NCBI GenBank assembly: GCA_015178975.1
Contig: WHVD01000103.1
Span: 124,001-188,000 of the forward strand
Reading direction: 5' to 3'
DNA length: 64,000 bases
Source of the DNA: Hysterangium stoloniferum
Taxonomy: Eukaryota > Basidiomycota > Agaricomycetes > Hysterangiales > Hysterangiaceae
Shown here piece by piece: positions 21,382 to 64,000 of the stretch. Numbering within the stretch: position 1 is the first letter of the stretch; the number at the start of each line of letters is the position of its first letter. Below the pieces are notes generated by a model that saw only the letters and a program-made list of their open reading frames with translations, searched no databases and was not told the origin of the DNA. The position numbers and the translations under genes were made by a program.

Positions 21382-22401
21382 ATGAAATCCATCTCTGCAG
21401 AAAAGCATTCTTCTGTTATTTTTCTCCTCAATGAGGGGTATTCCCAGTGTCAAATTCAAGCTAGGACTGGTCTGGGAAAGGGTACTATTGGCAGGATCAG
21501 TAGGGAGGTAGAGGGGGATAAGGAAAATCATCCTGGTGGCCATTCTTCTAAGCTTTCCCCTTATGATAAACAGTCAATTATCCATTAAATCAGCTCTGGG
21601 AAGCTTGACAATGCTGTCCAAGCCACCCAATTTATAAATTTCATCATATCTACCTCTGTCACTCCTCAGACTGTTAGGAATGTGTTGAAGGAAGCTGGCT
21701 TTAGGTCAGCAACAAAGAAGAAAGTCCCTATGTTCAAGGGGTCTCATCGTCAGCAACATCTAAAGTTTGCCCAATACCATGAAAATTGGACTATGGAGGA
21801 CTGGAAGAGGGTGTTGTGGACTGATGAGACAAAAATCAATAGGATTGGGTCAGATGGAAAGGTATATGTTTGGAAGCAACAAGGGGAACCAGTATCAGAC
21901 AGGACCACCACACCAACTATCAAACATGGAGGGGGGAATAACTTGATGGTTTGGGAGTGTATGGGCTGGAATGGGGTGGGGAAGCTGATAGAGGTGCAGA
22001 AGAACATGGATACAGTGCAGTATTATGAGATTTTGGAGGAGGGAGTGGAGGAGAGCATTGAAAGTTTGGAGATGGCTGAGGATAAGTGGTACTTCCAACA
22101 GGACAATGATCCAAAACATACCTCAAAAAAGGCAGACCAGTGGTTATCTGACAATAACATCATTCCTATGAATTGGCCTGCCCAATCCCCTGATCTAAAT
22201 CCCATTGAACACCTCTGGCAATACCTCAAGGCCAAACTCCAACAATATGACATATCACCCAAAGGAGTACATAGATTATGGGACAGGGTGGCAAAGGAGT
22301 GGACTGAAATACCACCAGAGACATGTCAGAAGCTAATAGAAAGCATGCCTAGGAGGATACAGGCAGTTTTAAAGGCAAAGGGGGGTCATACAAAGTATTA
22401 G
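21382..22401 (+). pseudogene. Tc1-type DD34E transposase with one internal stop
   Basis: One frame of 339 codons, open except for TAA at 21586. The N-terminal part (21382-21585) is a helix-turn-helix DNA-binding region (VIFLLNEGYSQCQIQARTGL, GKGTIGRI). The C-terminal part (from about 21589) has the first catalytic Asp in WTDETKINRIGSDGKVYVW, the second in FQQDNDPKHTSK, and Glu in PDLNPIEHLWQYLK, the DD34E spacing of Tc1. About 340 residues is the usual size. A single stop in the linker between the DNA-binding and catalytic halves suggests recent inactivation; supply in trans from another copy would be needed for movement. Confidence 0.9.
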
Positions 22402-52625: not shown

Positions 52626-55600
52626 ATGTCCACACAACCCACACTATTCATGCCACCATCGGAAGACCGTTTCAACAGAAGCAACTGGCTCACCTGGAAC
52701 AACACCGTTTGGTCTGCCACAGGTGCACGAGGTGTCCAAGGATACCTGGATGGCACCATACAGACCCCTTCCCCCATCAACTCCAATATTGTGCCCATGC
52801 TGACAAGCTACTGGGGATCCAAGACCCCCTCACCTGAGGAATGGGAACAATGCAATGCGTATGCAAAGGCAATGATTGACCTAAATGTGAAAAACCCCAT
52901 TGGTCACGGTATCCAACTCACAGACACTGCATACGAAGCATGGTCCACACTAAATAAAATCCACAGTATGACATCTGACATAGGTTTGTTAAATGCTGAT
53001 AATGAACTTTGTGCAATTCAACATACAGATGGTGCAGATATCTTAAACTATTTTGCGTGACTGCAGGAAGGATGGGCAAAGGTTAATGCACAAGGGGGAA
53101 AAATGGACGGCTCGACTTTTTGTATAATTGTAATCACTTCAATGCCCAAGGAGTGGAACCTAGTCATCGCAACACTTTTCCCATTGAAAACATCACATGA
53201 AGTAATTGCAAACCTCACCTTATACAACACAACACTCGCTCAACACAGAAAACCAACACCACAATCATCACAAGCTCTTGCGACAACCAGACACAACAGA
53301 TCAACTGACGTCTGCTCCAACCCGAACTGTAAACACATAGGACACACAGTCAACAAGTGTTTCAAACCTGGGGGGGGAATGGAAGGCCAGTACCCAGACT
53401 GGTGGAGAAAAAAGGGGGTGGTGACTAGTGGAAACCAGACTTCACAACAAACACCACTGAGTAACACACCCCCAAAACCGACAGCGAATGTGGCAGTAGT
53501 GCCATCTACCCCCTTTACTTCTGGATCTGGGGAATTCTCTGCACTTATGACACAGGCAGAGCCAGCAATATTGACCATTGTCACCTATGCTGATTCTGCA
53601 GCCGGCGAGTGACCACTTTTTTACCAACATAAATGATTTTGTGTCGTACAAGCCATACACAGGGAAGAATGGGTCAACAGCAACCAGTGGTAGCACTTTC
53701 CTGATACTTGGAAAGGGAACAGTCAATAAACACTGCATGTATGATGGACGTATTATCAACCTCTCCTTCAGATATGCACTCCACTGCCCAACTCTATCCC
53801 ATAACCTTGTGTCCATTGGAAGGCTCAATAACAATGGTTGCTATGCAATCTCTGGGGGAGGAGGAGGGGTCACCTTTACCAACCCAACCAGCTGCCCATT
53901 TATGTATGGGAAAGGAGAGGGGACAATGTATCGAATTGAGATATTTCTGCCAACTGGGCCTCTCCCAAATACCACAATGCCCTCTGACATGGCAACACAC
54001 CTGACAACCACAAATGACACACCCGTGAGTGCCCTCACCACAAAATCCCATGACCAGCCCACCGATATTGACACCTGGTACCGGCACCTTGGTCATGTCA
54101 GTTACGATACTGTCCAACATATGTCCAAATGCGATATCATTTGTGGGATGGAAATAACCACCCTAGCGACTCGGCGAGGAATGTGTGAAGGGTGTATCAT
54201 GGGGAAACACACCCATCACCCATTTTACATGAATGATGAGTGGGAGACAGTGATTGGGGAGTGCACATATATTCACCTGTGGGGGCCATCCTGAGTGCAA
54301 TCTACAGGTGGCAGAAGTTACATGATGCCCTGCATCAATGGTTGAATCATCATGAAGTTTTCTTCCTGTCCACCAAGGAAGTTGAAGTGACATTGTCTGC
54401 TTTTAAAAATTACACAGCACTAACTGAGCACCAGACAGGAATGAAAGTGCACACCATACGTACAGATGAAGGCACTGAATTTATCAACTCCCTGTGGACT
54501 GCATATCTCAGTGAACAAGGTATCATACATGAGTCTACCACCACCTATTCCTCCTCATCCAATAGCATTGTTGAATGGTGTCACCACACCATTATCAAAA
54601 GGGTCCACATTTGACTGTATGAAAACAATCTTCCACCATCACTATGGTGCGAAATCGCAGCAGCAATCGCATATACGATGGACTTCATTCCCACTTCTAG
54701 ACACCCTGATGCGACCCCCTTTGAGCTGTGGTATGGACAAAAACCCAACATCTCTCACTTACAACTGCTCGGATGTACCACATATGCAAAGATCCCAGTC
54801 GAAGCAGGAGGCAGGCTGAGTAAACTGGATCCATGCTCCATCAAAGGAATTCATGTAGGATATTTTGGGCATGATGCTTACCGAATTTATGACCCAGAAA
54901 CCCGATGCATCTTTCGTTCTTGCAACGTCATCTTTGAAGAAACCCGTAACCATGGAACGCTAACTGATGTATCGAGCGAGGGGGAGGTGATTAATGCTGG
55001 CCAAGTTACACTCGACACACCTATAAACGAGAAGTCAGATGAGACTCACAGGGGACTAGCACTAGCACACAACCATATACACCCAATTAATATTTCCCTG
55101 TCTGCACCCAAACCACTCACCATCAAACTCACACCACATCACTCATCATGTGTTCCCATACCAACAAGGACTTCAGGACTTGATCAATTCTGAAAACAAT
55201 ATACAAGATGCTAAGGCCACTGGAGAGGCATGGGTGGATGACGAGACACGTGTCACTGACAGCAACCATGCCAGAGCTTTCCATACAGACATCAAAACAA
55301 TCCCAGAACTAGCAAATGTCTGGCCTCCCAACACATACCATGAGGTGATGACATGTCCTGATATATGGGGGGCCAATAGGTAAAGAACTAGAGGTAATGA
55401 AGAAGCATGGGGTCTGGACAGTAGTGGATTTCCCCAAGGATGTCAGATTGATAAAAACACGGTGGGCCTTTGCAAACAAGTATGATGGCAACAGAGAACT
55501 CATTGCATGAAAGCATGTCTCATCGCCAAAGGCTTTACACAAACCCCTGGCATCGACTTCTTTGAAATATACACTTCAGTCGTAAGGTGCGAATCACTAC

Positions 55601-57077
55601 AGATGAACTTAGCCATTGTGGCTGCAACTAATATGGAAGCACGGCAGATTGATTACATCACAGCGTATCTCAATTCCACTCCACAAGCTACTACATACAT
55701 CGAACTACCTGACAGAGTGAAGGAGGAAGAGAAGGTCAGACAGTTAGAAAAGACACTATATGGAATGATGGATGGGGCAAACAATTGGTGGGGGACCTTG
55801 GATAAGGAAATGAGTGAGTTAGGCTACTACTGCTCAAAGGCTGACCCGTCAGTGCATTCTCAGCACTCGAACAGCAACACCACTATCACAAGTACCTATA
55901 CCAATGACACAACTGGCATATTGTCCTCGAAGGAAGAGGCTGAGTGGGTGAAGGAAGAATTAGGTTGGACCTATCAAATGAAAGACCTAGGAGACGTGAA
56001 CCTTGTACTAGGGATATGGATCAATCGAGACAGGGAACAGGGCACCATTAGAATTTCGCAATGCATGTATCTTGAACGCATCCTCGAACATTTCGGAATG
56101 CTCAAATCAAACTTGTGCACAACACTGTTACCACCTGGCATTATGCTGACCACCAAGGAACAGGCCCCCCAAACAACTGAGGACCACATTTTCATTTCAG
56201 ACAAACCCTACCATGAGCTACTAGGGTCAATTATGTATGCACAAATAGTGACACAACCAGATCTTTCCTATGCACACTTAGCAAATTTGCCTCGAACCCA
56301 GGATGGGTACCTTGGAACATGTTGACTCACGTTATCCACTACATCAAGGGGACCCTCAATTATAGTATCACTTATGGTGGCTCACACAGGAACCTCACCC
56401 CAGTGGGATACATTGACACAGACTATGCTGGAGACATTGACACATGCCAATCCTGTTCTGGATACATTTTCATCCAGGCAGGAGGTCCTACCACTTGGGG
56501 TTCAAAGTATCAACCCACAGTCACTTTGTCCACAACAGAGTCAGAATACATGGCACTCATGTATGAAACAGATACTATGGATGTACACGGCCATGGATGA
56601 AGTTGGGTTCCCACAACAGAAGCCAGCCATCTTGTACAACAATAATTCTGGGGTGGTTCTTTTGACCAAAAATACAAAACACAATACACGCATCAAGCAC
56701 ATTGACATATGATACCACTATATACGGGAACACATCGAAGAAGGGGACATAGAAGTATATCACATACCCTCTAACGAAAATCTCACTGATATGTTCATGA
56801 AACTGTTGGCAAGGGTGCTTTTCAACACACACTGTGTTTCATTACAACATTGCGAGGGCACACTGAGCCAGGGGGAGTGTTGAGATAGACTCGATTGCCC
56901 AAGTCTATGTCAAGTCAATATGACAATGCTAAGTAGTATCGCATCACTCTATGTACGTATGTCAAATTAACATGACCCTACCAAGCCATTACATGCCTTG
57001 GACATGTATACCACCATTGTAGTTCTTTTCTGTCACATATCCAAAACCTATTTAGCTAGCACAGTGGCAGCACTATA
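52626..57077 (+). mobile_element. Ty1/copia fossil, nearly full coding length
   Basis: Plus strand: Gag 52626-53612 (LTSYWGSKTPSPEEW, HTVNKCFKPGGG zinc-knuckle region), protease about 53590-53760 (SDHFFTNINDFVSY), pre-integrase 54061-54230 (WYRHLGHVSYDTVQ), integrase about 54240-54720, RT 55507-56320 (SYLNSTPQATTYIELPD-like YLNSTPQATTYIELPD, DLGDVNLVLGIWI), RNase H 56319-56712 (SKYQPTVTLSTTESEYMAL), purine tract GCCAGGGGGAG, 3' LTR from 56878 (TGTTGAGATAGAC). The LTR is interrupted after 57077 by a solo LTR and resumes at 57867. About ten breaks or so; old. Related to the copia at 33.2-39.3 kb. Confidence 0.88.
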
Positions 57078-59490: not shown

Positions 59491-59620
59491 TGTGCATTAT
59501 TTGATAAACATCTAACCTCAGTCTCGTAGAATGTAAATGAAAACTGAGAAAAAACTTTCTAACTCAGACTTACAGGATATAATGCTTTTGATGCCGCATC
59601 AATATATAGTAAAGTTGCTT

Positions 59621-59742
59621 GGTGGGTGGTGGGTGTTTTTAGGCGCCGCAGGCCCTATTTGTGAGGGCGCGCAGCGCCCGAACCTCACTGTGTGACTAAG
59701 CTGAGGGCACATTAGCACCCGAAGTCTCTTATTAGTCAGTGC
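59621..59742 (+). repeat. GC-rich leader, copy 1, before a tandem array
   Basis: Shares GGTGGGT..GTGGGTG, TTTTAGGC, GTGAGGGCGC, GCCCGAAC and a final TTAGTCAG(T/C)GC with 61554-61662, in the same order. Contains GGGCGCGCAGCGCCC, a strong hairpin, and a second weaker copy of that motif (GAGGGCACATTAGCACCCGA). Confidence 0.8.
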
Positions 59743-60290
59743 GGGAGCAAATCCAGAGGCTTTTTGCCATTTGCAGGAGCATTGTTGACACCGCGGGAGC
59801 ATTTCTGCACTCGCGGGAGTATTTTTGGCGCCGCGGGAGTATTTTGTCACTTGCGCGGAGGTATTTCATGACGGCGGGAATATTGTTACACGTGTGGGAG
59901 TATTTTGTCACATGCACGGAGGTATTTTCCGATGCCGCAGGAGTATTGTTACATGCACGGGAGTATTTTGTCACGTGCATGGAAGTATTGTTACATGTGC
60001 AGGAGCATTTTTTGAATGCGCGGGAGTATTTTGTAACGCTGCGGGAGTATTTGTCACATGTGCGGAACCATTTCACAGGGCCTAATGAAGACATTTCCCA
60101 CGACTCGCCAAGTAACATTGCCCGCGCCCTTCCAATAAGCATTTCTCACGACATTTCCGGGGGAATTTCCCATGCCCTTCACAGATGGATTTTCCATACC
60201 TTTCGCGGAACTATTTCCCGCGCCCCTCACGGGCGCATTTTCCACACATTTCGCGGAACTATTTCCCATGCCCCTGTGAAGCCATTTCCC
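59743..60290. repeat. tandem array A (GCGGGAGTATTTTGTCAC-type units)
   Basis: The first half is about 15 units of 24-36 bp around GCGGGAGTATTTTGTCAC(A/G)TG. The second half (60090-60290) has CATTTCCCRCGCCCYTC and TTTCGCGGAACTATTTCCC units. Confidence 0.9.
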
Positions 60291-60339
60291 TGGAGAAGGA
60301 TGGTAAATCCCTGGAGGAGGTCTACATGGTTTTCCGGGT

Positions 60340-60595
60340 TAATTAAAATGAAATACAATAAATCAAAATCAAATGTTTAAAAATAGAATAAAATAGAATA
60401 AACCAAAGTAAAATGTAATAAATCAGAATAAAATACAATGAGTCAAAATAAAATGCAATAAAACAAAATAAAATAAAATAAAATAAAATAAAATAACATA
60501 AAATACAATAAATAACACTAAATTCAAATGAAGTACAATAAATTAAAATAAAATATAATAAACTAAACTAAATTACATAAAGTAAAATATGAAAC
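60340..60595. repeat. AATAAAATAAAAT-type low-complexity tract
   Basis: Imperfect 5- and 10-bp repeats of AATAAAATAC/AATAAATCAA, including nine near-perfect AAAAT units about 60465-60500. Confidence 0.9.
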
Positions 60596-60597
60596 TA

Positions 60598-61410
60598 TTG
60601 CACCTTTTGTCACTATTGCACCTTTTGTCACTGTTGCACCTTTTGTCACTGTTTCACCTTTTGTAGCTGTCATTTCCATTTGTCACCATTGTTTCCATTT
60701 GTCACCATTGTTTCCCTTTGTGACTGTTGTTTCCCTTTGTGAAGGTTGTTTCCCTTTGTGACTGTTGTTTCCCTTTGTGACCTTTGTTTCCCTTTGTGAC
60801 CTTTGTTTCCCTTTGTGACCTTTGTTTCCCTTTGTGAACATTGTTTCCCTTTGTGAACGTTGTTTCCCTTTGTGAATGTTGTGTCCTTATGTGAACGTTG
60901 ATGCCTTTGTAACCATTGATGCCTTTGTGAACATTGTGTCTTTTTGTGAATGTTGTGTCCTTTTGTAACTGTTGATTCCTTTTGTAACTGTTGATTCCGT
61001 TTGTAACCATTGATTCCTTTTGTAACCATTGATTCCGTTTGTAACCATTGATTCCGTTTGTAACAGTTGATTCCGTTTGTAACCGTTGATTCCTTTTGTA
61101 ACCGTTGATTCCTTTTGTAACCGTTGACTCCTTTTGTAACCGTTGACTCCTTTTGTAACCGTTGAGTCCTTTTGTAACCTTTGACTCCTTTTGTAACTTT
61201 TGACTCCTTTGTAACCGTTGACTCCTTTGTACCCGTTCTACAAACACTTTCCGTTGTTTCCTTTGTAACTGTTGTTTCCTTTGTAACCGTTGTTTCCTTT
61301 GTAACTCTGTTCTCTGAACACTTTCCGTTCTCTGAACACTTTCCGTTCTCTGAACACTTTCCGTTCTCTGAACACTTTCCGTTCTCTGAACACTTTCCGT
61401 TCTCTACACA
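60598..61410. repeat. tandem array C (18-20 bp units)
   Basis: About forty units: first four of TTGCACCTTTTGTCACT, then TTTGTGACCTTTGTTTCCC types, then TTTGTAACCGTTGATTCC types, finally six of CTCTGAACACTTTCCGTT. Units change gradually along the array. Several frames stay open for 180-250 codons only because unit length and composition allow it. Confidence 0.93.
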
Positions 61411-61466
61411 CTTTCGTTCAAACAATGAGTCTCAGAAATACTTAAGAGTGATGGACACGGGGGGGT

Positions 61467-61487
61467 TTGGGGGGCAAAGCCCCCCAA
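61467..61487. other. strong G/C hairpin
   Basis: TTGGGGGGC and GCCCCCCAA pair perfectly around AAA. It lies in the unique sequence between array C and the second leader. Confidence 0.85.
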
Positions 61488-61553
61488 CAAGCCGGAGCCC
61501 GCAGCGTAGCAAGGGTTCCCAGGCTTGTCCAATCCAATAAGTGAAAGGAGCAT

Positions 61554-61662
61554 GGTGGGTCCGTGGGTGCTTTTAGGCACTGTGAGGGCGCAGAGTGCCC
61601 GAACTCCCTCTGTAAAAGGCAGGTAAAAGGTACCATCAGCTTAGTCACCTCCTTAGTCAGCG
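61554..61662 (+). repeat. GC-rich leader, copy 2, before a tandem array
   Basis: Partner of 59621-59742. Carries GGCACT...AGTGCC able to pair, GAGGGCGCAGAGTGCCCGAA, and ends CTTAGTCAGCGC directly before array D. Confidence 0.8.
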
Positions 61663-62282
61663 CACCCATCCCACAGTGCACCCATCCCACAGTGCACCCA
61701 TCCCACAGTGCACCCATCCCACAGTGCACCCATCCCACAGTGCACCCATCCCACAGTGCACCCATCCACACACCTATCCACCACGCGCCCATCCACGACG
61801 CACACACTCCCATTCATTGTGCACCTGCACCCATCCGCTGCGCACCCATCCACCCACACCCATCCACCGTGCACCCATCCACCGTGCACCTGCTCCCATC
61901 CACTGCACACCCATACACCCACACCCATCCAATCCGCTATGCACCCATCCACCTGCACCCATCCACCGTGCACCCGTCCACCGCGCACCCATCCACTGCG
62001 CACCTGCTCCCATCCACCGTGCACCCATCCACCCACACCCATCCACTGCGCACCCATCCATCGTGCACCTGCACCCATCCGCTGCGCACCCATCCACCCG
62101 CACCCATCCACCGTGCACCCATCCACCGCGCACCCATCCATCGTGCACCCATCCACCGCGCACCCATCCATGACGCACTCACTCCCATCCATCGCACACC
62201 CATCCACCGCGCACCCATCCACCGCGTACCCATCCATGATGCACTCACTCCCATCCACCGCGCACACACTCCCATCCATGGG
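61663..62282. repeat. tandem array D (15-16 bp units)
   Basis: About forty units. The first seven are GCACCCATCCCACAGT; the rest are mostly GCACCCATCCACCGT with (C/T)(A/G) variants and CTGCTCCCATCCAC or ACTCCCATCCA inserts that recur in a higher-order pattern. Confidence 0.93.
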
Positions 62283-62430
62283 CACATGCCTGCCCGCCCA
62301 CTCGGGCACAAACCGGCAAAGTGTGTTCCATTTGCCAATGCGCACACACGCTGCACCTGTTGGCAAGGCACTGTGCCCATTTGTGTCCGATTGGGCGTGC
62401 ACCGCTCTGATCGGCCCCTCCAGTTGGTGC
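62283..62430. other. unique spacer between arrays D and E
   Basis: GC-rich, not repetitive within the window; includes short inverted matches (TGCCAACAGG/CCTGTTGGCA-type) around 62355. No gene. Confidence 0.5.
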
Positions 62431-63955
62431 GTGTCCCCTTTCCTTCTCTCTTCATCCTCCTCTGATCGTCCTCATCTCTTTCCTCCAGGATGTGTGTCCC
62501 CTTTCCTTCTCTCTTTGTCCATCTGTCTTTCCTCCAGTTGCTGTGGGTCCCCTTTTCTTCTCTCTTCATCCTCCTCTGATGGCCTCCTCTCTCTTTCCTC
62601 CAGGACGTGTGTGTACCCTTTCTTTCTCTCTTCGTCCTCCACTCATAGGCCTCCTCTCTTTCCTCCAGGAAGTGCATGTACCCTTTCCTTCTCTCTTCGT
62701 CCTCCTCTGATGGCCTCCTCTCTTTCCTCCAGCAAGTGTGTGTCCCCTTTCCTCCTCTCTTTGTTCTCCTCTGATTGTCCTCCTCTCCCTTTCCTCCAGC
62801 GAGTGCGTGTACCCTTTCCTTCTCTCTTTGCCCTCCTCTGATCATCCTCCTCTCCCTTTCCTCCAGTGAGTGTGTGTACCCTTCCCCTCTCCCTTTTTTC
62901 TCCAGGAGGTGCGTGTACCCTGTCTTTCTCTCTTTGTCTTCTTCTGATTGCCCTCCTCTCTCTTTCCTCCAGGAGTTGCATGTAGCCTGTCTTTCTCCCT
63001 TTGTCCTCCTCTCTTTCCTCCAGGCGGTGGGTGTACAGTTTCCTTCTCTCTTCATCCTCCTCTGATTGGCCCCCTCTCTTTCCTCCAGGATGTGTGTCCC
63101 CTTTCCTCCTCTGATCGGCCTCCTCTTTCCTCCAGCCGGTGCGTGTTCCTTTTCCCCCCTCTCTCTGTCCTCCTCTGATGGGCCCCCTCTCTTTCCTCCA
63201 GCCGGTGTGCATTCCCTTTCCTTCTCTCTCTGTCCTCCTCTGACTGGCCTCCTCTCTCTTTCCTCCAGTGTGTGCAGGTACTGTTTCCCTCTTCCTCTCT
63301 CCTCTGACTGGCCCTCTCTCTCTTTCCTCCAGCCAGTGTATGTACAGTTTCCTTCTCTTTCTGTCTTCCTCTGACTGGCCTCCTCTCTCTTTCCTCCAGC
63401 TGGTGTGTCTACCATATCCTTCTTCCTCCGTCCTCCTCTGATCACTGATTGCCCCCCCCCCCCTCTCTCCTTCAGCCAGTCTGTGTCTGTTTCCTTCTTC
63501 CTCCATCCTCTTCTGATCAGCCTCCTCTTTCTTTCCGCCAACGAGTGCGTGTATCATTTCCTTCACCTTTGTCCTCCTCTGATTGTCCTCCTCTCTTTCC
63601 TCCAGCCAGTGTGTGTACCATTTCCTTCACTCTCCGTCCTGCTCTGAATGGGCCCCTCTCTCTTTCCTCCAGATGGTGCGTGTACCATTTATTTCTCTCT
63701 CCATCCTGCTCTGATTGGCCTCTCTTTCCTCCAGGTGGTGCATGTACCATTTCCTTCTTCCTCCATCCTGCTCTGATCAGCCCCATCTCTCTTTCTTCCA
63801 GGGTGCCTGTGCTGTTTCCTTCTCTCTTTGTCCTCTGATTGACCTCCTCTCTCTTTCCTCCAATGAGTGTGTGTACTATTTCCTTCTCTCTTCCTCCCCA
63901 TCTGATTGGCCTCCTGTCTGTCCTCCCAGAGGTGCGTGTCCCCTTTCCTTCTCTT
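62431..63955. repeat. tandem array E (about 58-bp units)
   Basis: About 25 units of CTCTCTTTCCTCCAG, a variable 8-12 bp, GTGTGTACC, TTTCCTTCTCTCT, then CGTCCTCCTCTGATTGGCC. Pyrimidine-rich on the plus strand. The array runs to about 20-45 bp from the window edge. Confidence 0.93.
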
Positions 63956-64000
63956 TTTGTCCTCTGATCACAGCAATCCTAAAATAAAAATAATATACAT

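Follow-up and report, generated by a model that had tools for sequence, protein, structure and literature searches.

A minisatellite cluster of Hysterangium stoloniferum as a probable pair of complete Helitrons joined head to tail, within a family that forms chains

Helraiser, the bat element that we take to be a canonical Helitron, begins with TC, inserts between A and T and ends in CTAG, and we know of no minisatellite-bodied partner for it. The present work concerns a stretch of 64,000 nucleotides of the basidiomycete Hysterangium stoloniferum (assembly GCA_015178975.1, contig WHVD01000103.1, positions 124,001 to 188,000; hereafter the window), in which the region 59599-64642 is very probably occupied by two complete non-autonomous Helitrons that follow each other head to tail within a single target site. 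The closest published match, by description, is the family HELPO2 of Pleurotus ostreatus, which likewise inserts between A and T, ends in CTTG behind a subterminal hairpin and encodes its RepHel protein in one frame (Castanera et al., 2014, PMC4289320). The same source gives the 3' end of Pleurotus Helitrons as CT[A/T]G; in that text intact non-autonomous copies are reported for HELPO1 only and the word "tandem" does not occur. Back-to-back Helitrons are known from maize and bats, where the 3' end of one element lies against the TC of the next in a direct G/T junction as it does here; the maize pair also consists of unlike neighbours, and insertion between a host A and an element T was already proposed for it (PMC2267711).

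The region had been described in an earlier note, made from the window alone, as a mosaic of unrelated minisatellites, two of them introduced by the same GC-rich leader. The tandem arrays, detected by Tandem Repeats Finder (TRF), and both leaders are real, but the mosaic is one order read twice, namely head, one or more arrays, an AATAAA tract, arrays of 18-19 bp and a tail, so that an apparent jumble of repeats becomes a readable transposon pair. In the following, a slash marks an element boundary. Element 1 starts where the host sequence ...GCCGCA gives way to TCAATATATAG... at 59599, and ends as ...CCCAGGCTTG/T at 61527; element 2 runs from TCCAATAAGTG... at 61533 to ...CCTAAGCTTG/TACATATG at coordinate 64642, beyond the window edge, and its part past that edge holds an AATAAA tract, 18-bp arrays and a tail of the kind found in element 1. 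The two leaders are indeed related, but they start earlier than had been proposed, each at an A/TC boundary. By alignment, the tails are 85% identical over 189 columns and 88% over the last 26 bases, with different variants of the 3' end (CCCAGG in element 1, CCTAAG in element 2), while the first arrays differ and the leaders are 69% identical over 84 columns. The RepHel gene, which joins a Rep of the HUH type to a PIF1-type helicase, is absent from both elements of the window, whose longest open frames fall inside arrays.

These ends recur throughout the genome (111 Mb in 554 contigs; the window sits on contig C6). Searches with leader 1, leader 2 and the tail gave 147, 140 and 415 first-look candidates, respectively, of which 40 each were scored, so the counts are lower bounds. 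With the window copy included, at least 41 places cover at least 85 of the 122 bases of leader 1, and at least 40 cover between 66 and 132 of the 132 bases of leader 2, and the two leaders are not a single local duplication; the tail is found, over at least 74 of its 112 bases, in at least 40 places. The 90 loci fetched, together with two longer stretches, provided 58 distinct 5' ends and 57 distinct 3' ends. The check for Helitron-type ends suggested in the earlier note came out positively: 56 of the 58 listed 5' ends start with TC (L050 has CC, and the row of L087 begins just inside its TC), and 56 of the 57 3' ends are CTTG (CTGG in the other one), followed by T in 55 of the 56 cases that have a next base. 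The 5' end is preceded by A in 31/58 cases and by CTTG in 23/58, the latter belonging to the family's own tail in 22 and to a different tail in L042; of the remaining four, two rows of L045 follow CTAG in a 44-bp array, L047 follows T and L087 follows C, owing to the listing offset. The 3' end of element 1, the one copy folded, forms hairpins just upstream of the terminus better than shuffled sequence does (z -3.62; 1/200 shuffles equally good), although its outer stem includes the terminal CTTG, whereas a Helitron hairpin usually stands about 10-12 bases away from the 3' end (PMC5148889).

The landing site itself could be reconstructed by eye. The flanks to the left of element 1 and to the right of element 2 belong to one dispersed host repeat, and all four fetched host copies of it are uninterrupted, reading for example GCTTTTGACATCGCA/TACACAAATGTATGCAG where the window reads GATGCCGCA/element 1-TCCAA-element 2/TACATATGTATGCGG. 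Because these four unoccupied copies run through the site, the pair fills a single A/T site without target-site duplication; TCCAA as host sequence is ruled out, since none of the four carries it. A second host repeat, GCTCTATCATATCTAG, is uninterrupted in all five of its fetched copies and has been entered by elements of the family at three A/T positions within about ten bases (L022 and L032; L068, seen from its 3' side; L026). This second repeat is very common, with 722 first-look candidates, 40 of which were scored. The TC start, insertion between A and T and lack of a target-site duplication all agree with what is expected of a Helitron.

A RepHel gene is found in a copy on contig C112 (L022 and L092) that shares both ends with element 1 and the 3' end with element 2. 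This copy spans 7,113 bp, from TCAATATATAG to CCCAGGCTTG, and holds an open frame of 1,866 amino acids from stop to stop. Against element 1, its leader is 74% identical over 273 columns and its tail 97% over 72 bp, with 22/22 terminal bases identical; with element 2 the tail alone aligns at an E-value of 1e-3 (84% over 134 bp). The 1,745 amino acids of the frame that were scanned match the Pfam domains Helitron_like_N (4.7e-57) and PIF1 (5.6e-72), and the best match among solved structures is bat Helraiser (PDB 7lcc, chain A; E-value 7.5e-272, 908 bits), aligned over query residues 332-1728. The protein also contains PHMHCLIW and YMHKYCYKG, which we take to be the HUH Rep motif and the motif with two tyrosines. 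In the genome as a whole, Helitron_like_N has at least 151 matches, with 150 of 342 candidates scored, and 22 open frames of at least 1,490 amino acids without a stop inside the match stand among those listed, the C112 copy being one of them. The leader thus marks the 5' end of a Helitron family, some copies of which have an open RepHel frame, and the earlier suggestion of a mobile unit with a rolling-circle transposon end is borne out. Elements with these ends would all be mobilised, by rolling-circle transposition, through the RepHel that autonomous copies encode.

The head-to-tail arrangement of the window is common in this family. Another copy's 3' end lies just upstream in 33 of the 60 loci selected by leader (in L023 the head was placed directly behind CTTG), with a largest gap of 13 bases (L027; measured against the usual head length), and a head lies just downstream in 22 of the 30 loci selected by tail. 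Counted as exact patterns over the whole genome, a first head sequence occurs 84 times, 35 of them directly after CTTG (nine of the 84 belong to one array on contig C51), and a second 53 times, 15 of them after CTTG; that is, 50 of 137 exact heads stand directly behind CTTG, a count of these two head sequences, with the head of element 2 and other variants outside it. Since A/T sites occur about once per twelve bases per strand (9,697 in the two strands of 59,500 bases), adjacency of head and tail by chance would be rare. In maize one case and in bats several have been described (PMC2267711), as against the counts given here, in which, moreover, partners are often re-paired. In one locus (L042, contig C234) a different tail ending in CTTG (GGGTCACAGCCTTG) abuts the head, and similar-looking sequence, as judged by eye, lies near the head in L056 (C224); it may be that a second Helitron family takes part in chains of this type.

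Re-pairing was seen in a set of 52 distinct junctions, where downstream elements were called near-identical at 97% or more over at least 500 bp, and upstream elements at 97% or more over at least 900 bp; the pairs overlap in membership and should not be read as independent. Near-identical downstream elements form 11 pairs, and in 10 of these the match between the upstream parts is confined to 131-717 bp, at 74-93%. Near-identical upstream elements form 10 pairs, nine of them with unlike downstream elements: five give no anchored match and four match at 82-95%, the latter being D-type (see below) on both sides, so that array turnover after common descent could also explain their difference. Neighbours are thus often re-paired, which favours repeated insertion over concatemers; taken together, the junctions point to chains assembled from elements that move independently.

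Several points weigh against this picture. The junctions of L048 and L053 are about 99% identical on both sides, and some junctions have therefore been copied by duplication. The counts come from the best-scored candidates or from two exact heads, and may include haplotype duplicates of the assembly. Leader 2 has no match to the C112 copy at an E-value of 1e-3, and the 5' end of element 2 is tied to RepHel by position only: leader 2 places lie, by coordinates, about 3 kb upstream of Helitron_like_N matches and on the same strand on C36, C62, C69, C79, C230 and C536. The 3' end CTTG departs from the strict Helitron rule, CTRR; we have not treated this rule as defining here because HELPO2, published as a Helitron family, also ends in CTTG (PMC4289320). 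Lastly, insertion at CTTG/T would yield the same junction as insertion at the 5' boundary of a resident element.

A host A followed by the first T of a resident element would again be a legal A/T target. A newcomer entering there would place its CTTG directly against the TC of the resident and rebuild A/TC on its own left, and we consider it somewhat more likely than not that chains grow in this way, through a target renewed at the resident's 5' boundary. New copies might instead enter at the 3' end of the resident (CTTG/T), where Rep cuts, which would account equally for the junction and for the heads that follow 22 of the 30 tail-selected 3' ends. This route appears to us a good deal less likely: among the 32 heads that are not directly behind CTTG, CTGG or CTAG, 31 follow A, one follows T and none follows G, so G/T seems not to be a free target, and the 5' route needs no new rule and is among the two orders proposed for the maize pair (PMC2267711).

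A third possibility is very improbable, namely that a single event produced the pair as a concatemer, either by rolling-circle replication past the 3' end or by insertion of a multimeric circle. The direct CTTG/TC junction is what a circle would be expected to leave, joined ends suggesting a circle were reported for a Fusarium Helitron (PMC5148889), tandem repeats were proposed for bats by Pritham and Feschotte (as cited in PMC2267711), and the likeness of L048 and L053 on both sides of the junction would fit. Elements 1 and 2, however, differ in head, first array and 3' end variant, and for the window pair these unlike neighbours led us to reject a concatemer; in general it is made unlikely by the re-paired junctions, with upstream neighbours diverged in 10 of 11 pairs and downstream ones in nine of 10, four of these perhaps through array turnover. 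A genome with many long RepHel frames and exact junctions makes the origin of tandem Helitrons, by concatemers or by repeated insertion, testable.

Beyond growth of chains at the 5' side, it is conceivable, though we hold it only tentatively, that the 5' terminus renews itself as a landing point and also serves for reiteration, in that rounds which abort there would leave the terminus copied in tandem and could seed new minisatellites. Possible examples of such reiteration are the spacers TCA and TCCAA and the heads on C51 spaced at 44 bp. A copy of the head's own first 3-5 bases precedes eight of the same 32 heads; the flank ends in TCA in 7 of the 31 preceded by A, as against a background of 7.6% (p 0.008), with L002 and L007 perhaps representing one event. 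The flank of L002 starts at the end of another repeat family, and for this reason no empty site is provided by the seven relatives that were fetched. This signal of reiteration at the 5' end is suggestive only. The array on C51 (L045, 36591-36961, minus strand) consists of nine heads 44 bp apart, in units running from TC to CTAG, starts at an A/T site and precedes a full element with leader 2; it reads TTTCTAG at about the point where the majority of the other heads listed have TTTTTAG or TTTTAG. The CTAG of its units is of the canonical Helitron terminator type (CTRR).

As to classification, tandem-repeat bodies are common among the Helentron or Helitron2-type elements. Fusarium Helitrons are of that type (PMC5148889). 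For the present family a place there instead of with canonical Helitrons is most unlikely, in view of the TC start, the insertion between A and T, Helraiser as the best match among solved structures, and a scan of 1,745 amino acids in which no endonuclease domain, such as Helentron transposases carry, was among the Pfam matches. Replitrons, which carry HUH endonucleases, were considered and dropped, the partner protein being a RepHel with a PIF1 helicase. Short tandem arrays are also carried and spread by DINE-TR1 of Drosophila and by oyster Helitrons (PMC9659126, PMC12692304); DINEs differ in belonging to the Helitron2 group (PMC5148889) and in their hosts, whereas the RepHel here best matches Helraiser. 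Canonical, tandem-repeat-bearing and back-to-back Helitrons have all been published before (PMC4289320, PMC5148889, PMC2267711, PMC9659126, PMC12692304), and what is noteworthy in this genome is the number of chains, the re-pairing of neighbours and, on C51, the array of 44-bp TC...CTAG units. Among the titles and abstract openings of the open-licence literature we found no basidiomycete Helitron family of this build, though the body of such papers may still describe one.

In these elements it is the minisatellites that form the non-coding body. Each leader of the window continues directly into its array, and in the genome an array was detected by TRF near the leader in 51 of the 60 leader-selected loci; leaders without arrays, which would have counted against the earlier note, are few. 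In the window, TRF gave periods of 20/63 and 24/48 for array A (59792-60275) and mainly 15-16 bp for array D (61658-62280); the pyrimidine-rich array also exists as first described, but its main period is 67 bp rather than 58. The expectation of a common head with a different array each time held only in part. Two body types recur, A only in 41 of the 60 loci, D only in 15, both in one and neither in three (at a threshold of at least three units, in counts that allow mismatches and have no shuffled control behind them), and the array is not new at each leader. In L009 on contig C212, the locus with both types, leader 1 is followed first by a few units of type A and next by an array of type D, and the element is a mosaic of the two bodies. 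The autonomous C112 copy carries a short A array between leader and gene (L022), the pyrimidine-rich type recurs in the element behind that copy, and the 3' arrays of several copies resemble, by eye, versions of one GTTCT...ACTTTCC unit. That the GC-rich leader is a hairpin beside which replication slippage gives rise to unrelated minisatellites is scarcely tenable even though arrays so regularly begin right behind it, since the folding of leader 1 does not surpass that of shuffled sequence (z -0.47; 60/200 shuffles as good), the leader is a dispersed 5' terminus, both window elements end in tails of one kind, the array behind the leader is only short in the autonomous copy, and A or D bodies cover 57 of the 60 loci. 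As a warning, clusters of minisatellites in genomes of this sort may prove to be Helitron bodies.

Table 1. Features of the Helitron pair and its left flank, in coordinates of the window.
Feature	Position	Strand	Basis
Left host flank, dispersed repeat	59560..59598	+	Four unoccupied copies continue into the sequence right of element 2
Element 1, probable complete non-autonomous Helitron, 1,929 bp, A/TC...CTTG/T	59599..61527	+	Both ends match the autonomous C112 copy and are found again in numerous copies
Leader 1, forming the 5' end region of element 1	59599..59742	+	Genome search with leader
Array A, GCGGGAGTATTT-type units of about 20 bp, then GGAATTTCCC-like continuation	59735..60300	+	TRF rows 59792-60275; outer limits by eye
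AATAAA/TAAAATAAAA tract, common to the tail of element 2	60341..60589	+	TRF, alignment
Arrays of 18-19 bp (ACTGTTGCACCTTTTGTC, TTCCTTTTGTAACCGTTGA, GTTCTCTGAACACTTTCC), common to the tail of element 2	60594..61419	+	TRF, alignment
3' end region of element 1, terminating in CTTG, with hairpins at 61459-61485 and 61488-61527	61420..61527	+	Fold z -3.62
TCCAA spacer between the elements	61528..61532	+	Absent from four unoccupied host copies; equals the first five bases of element 2
Element 2, probable complete non-autonomous Helitron, 3,110 bp	61533..64000, 3' end CCTAAGCTTG/T at 64642 (L091:653)	+	3' end matches the autonomous C112 copy; tail repeats that of element 1
Leader 2, forming the 5' end region of element 2	61533..61662	+	Genome search with leader
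Array D (CACCCATCCACCGCG, 15-16 bp)	61658..62280	+	TRF, unit counts
Pyrimidine-rich array, main period about 67 bp	62527..63968	+	TRF

Other mobile elements are present in the window. An open frame at 14138-17977 matches reverse transcriptase, RNase H and an integrase zinc-binding domain and belongs to a retroelement, presumably of the Gypsy type; a frame of a Tc1/mariner-type transposase lies at 21589-22401, and one with an RVT_2 reverse transcriptase, which we take to be of the Copia type, at 55486-56325. Beyond the window, about 2.4 kb after element 2, there is a gene with a NACHT match (L091:3065-4660), and the scan of gene content also gave an F-box-like match just under its cut-off.

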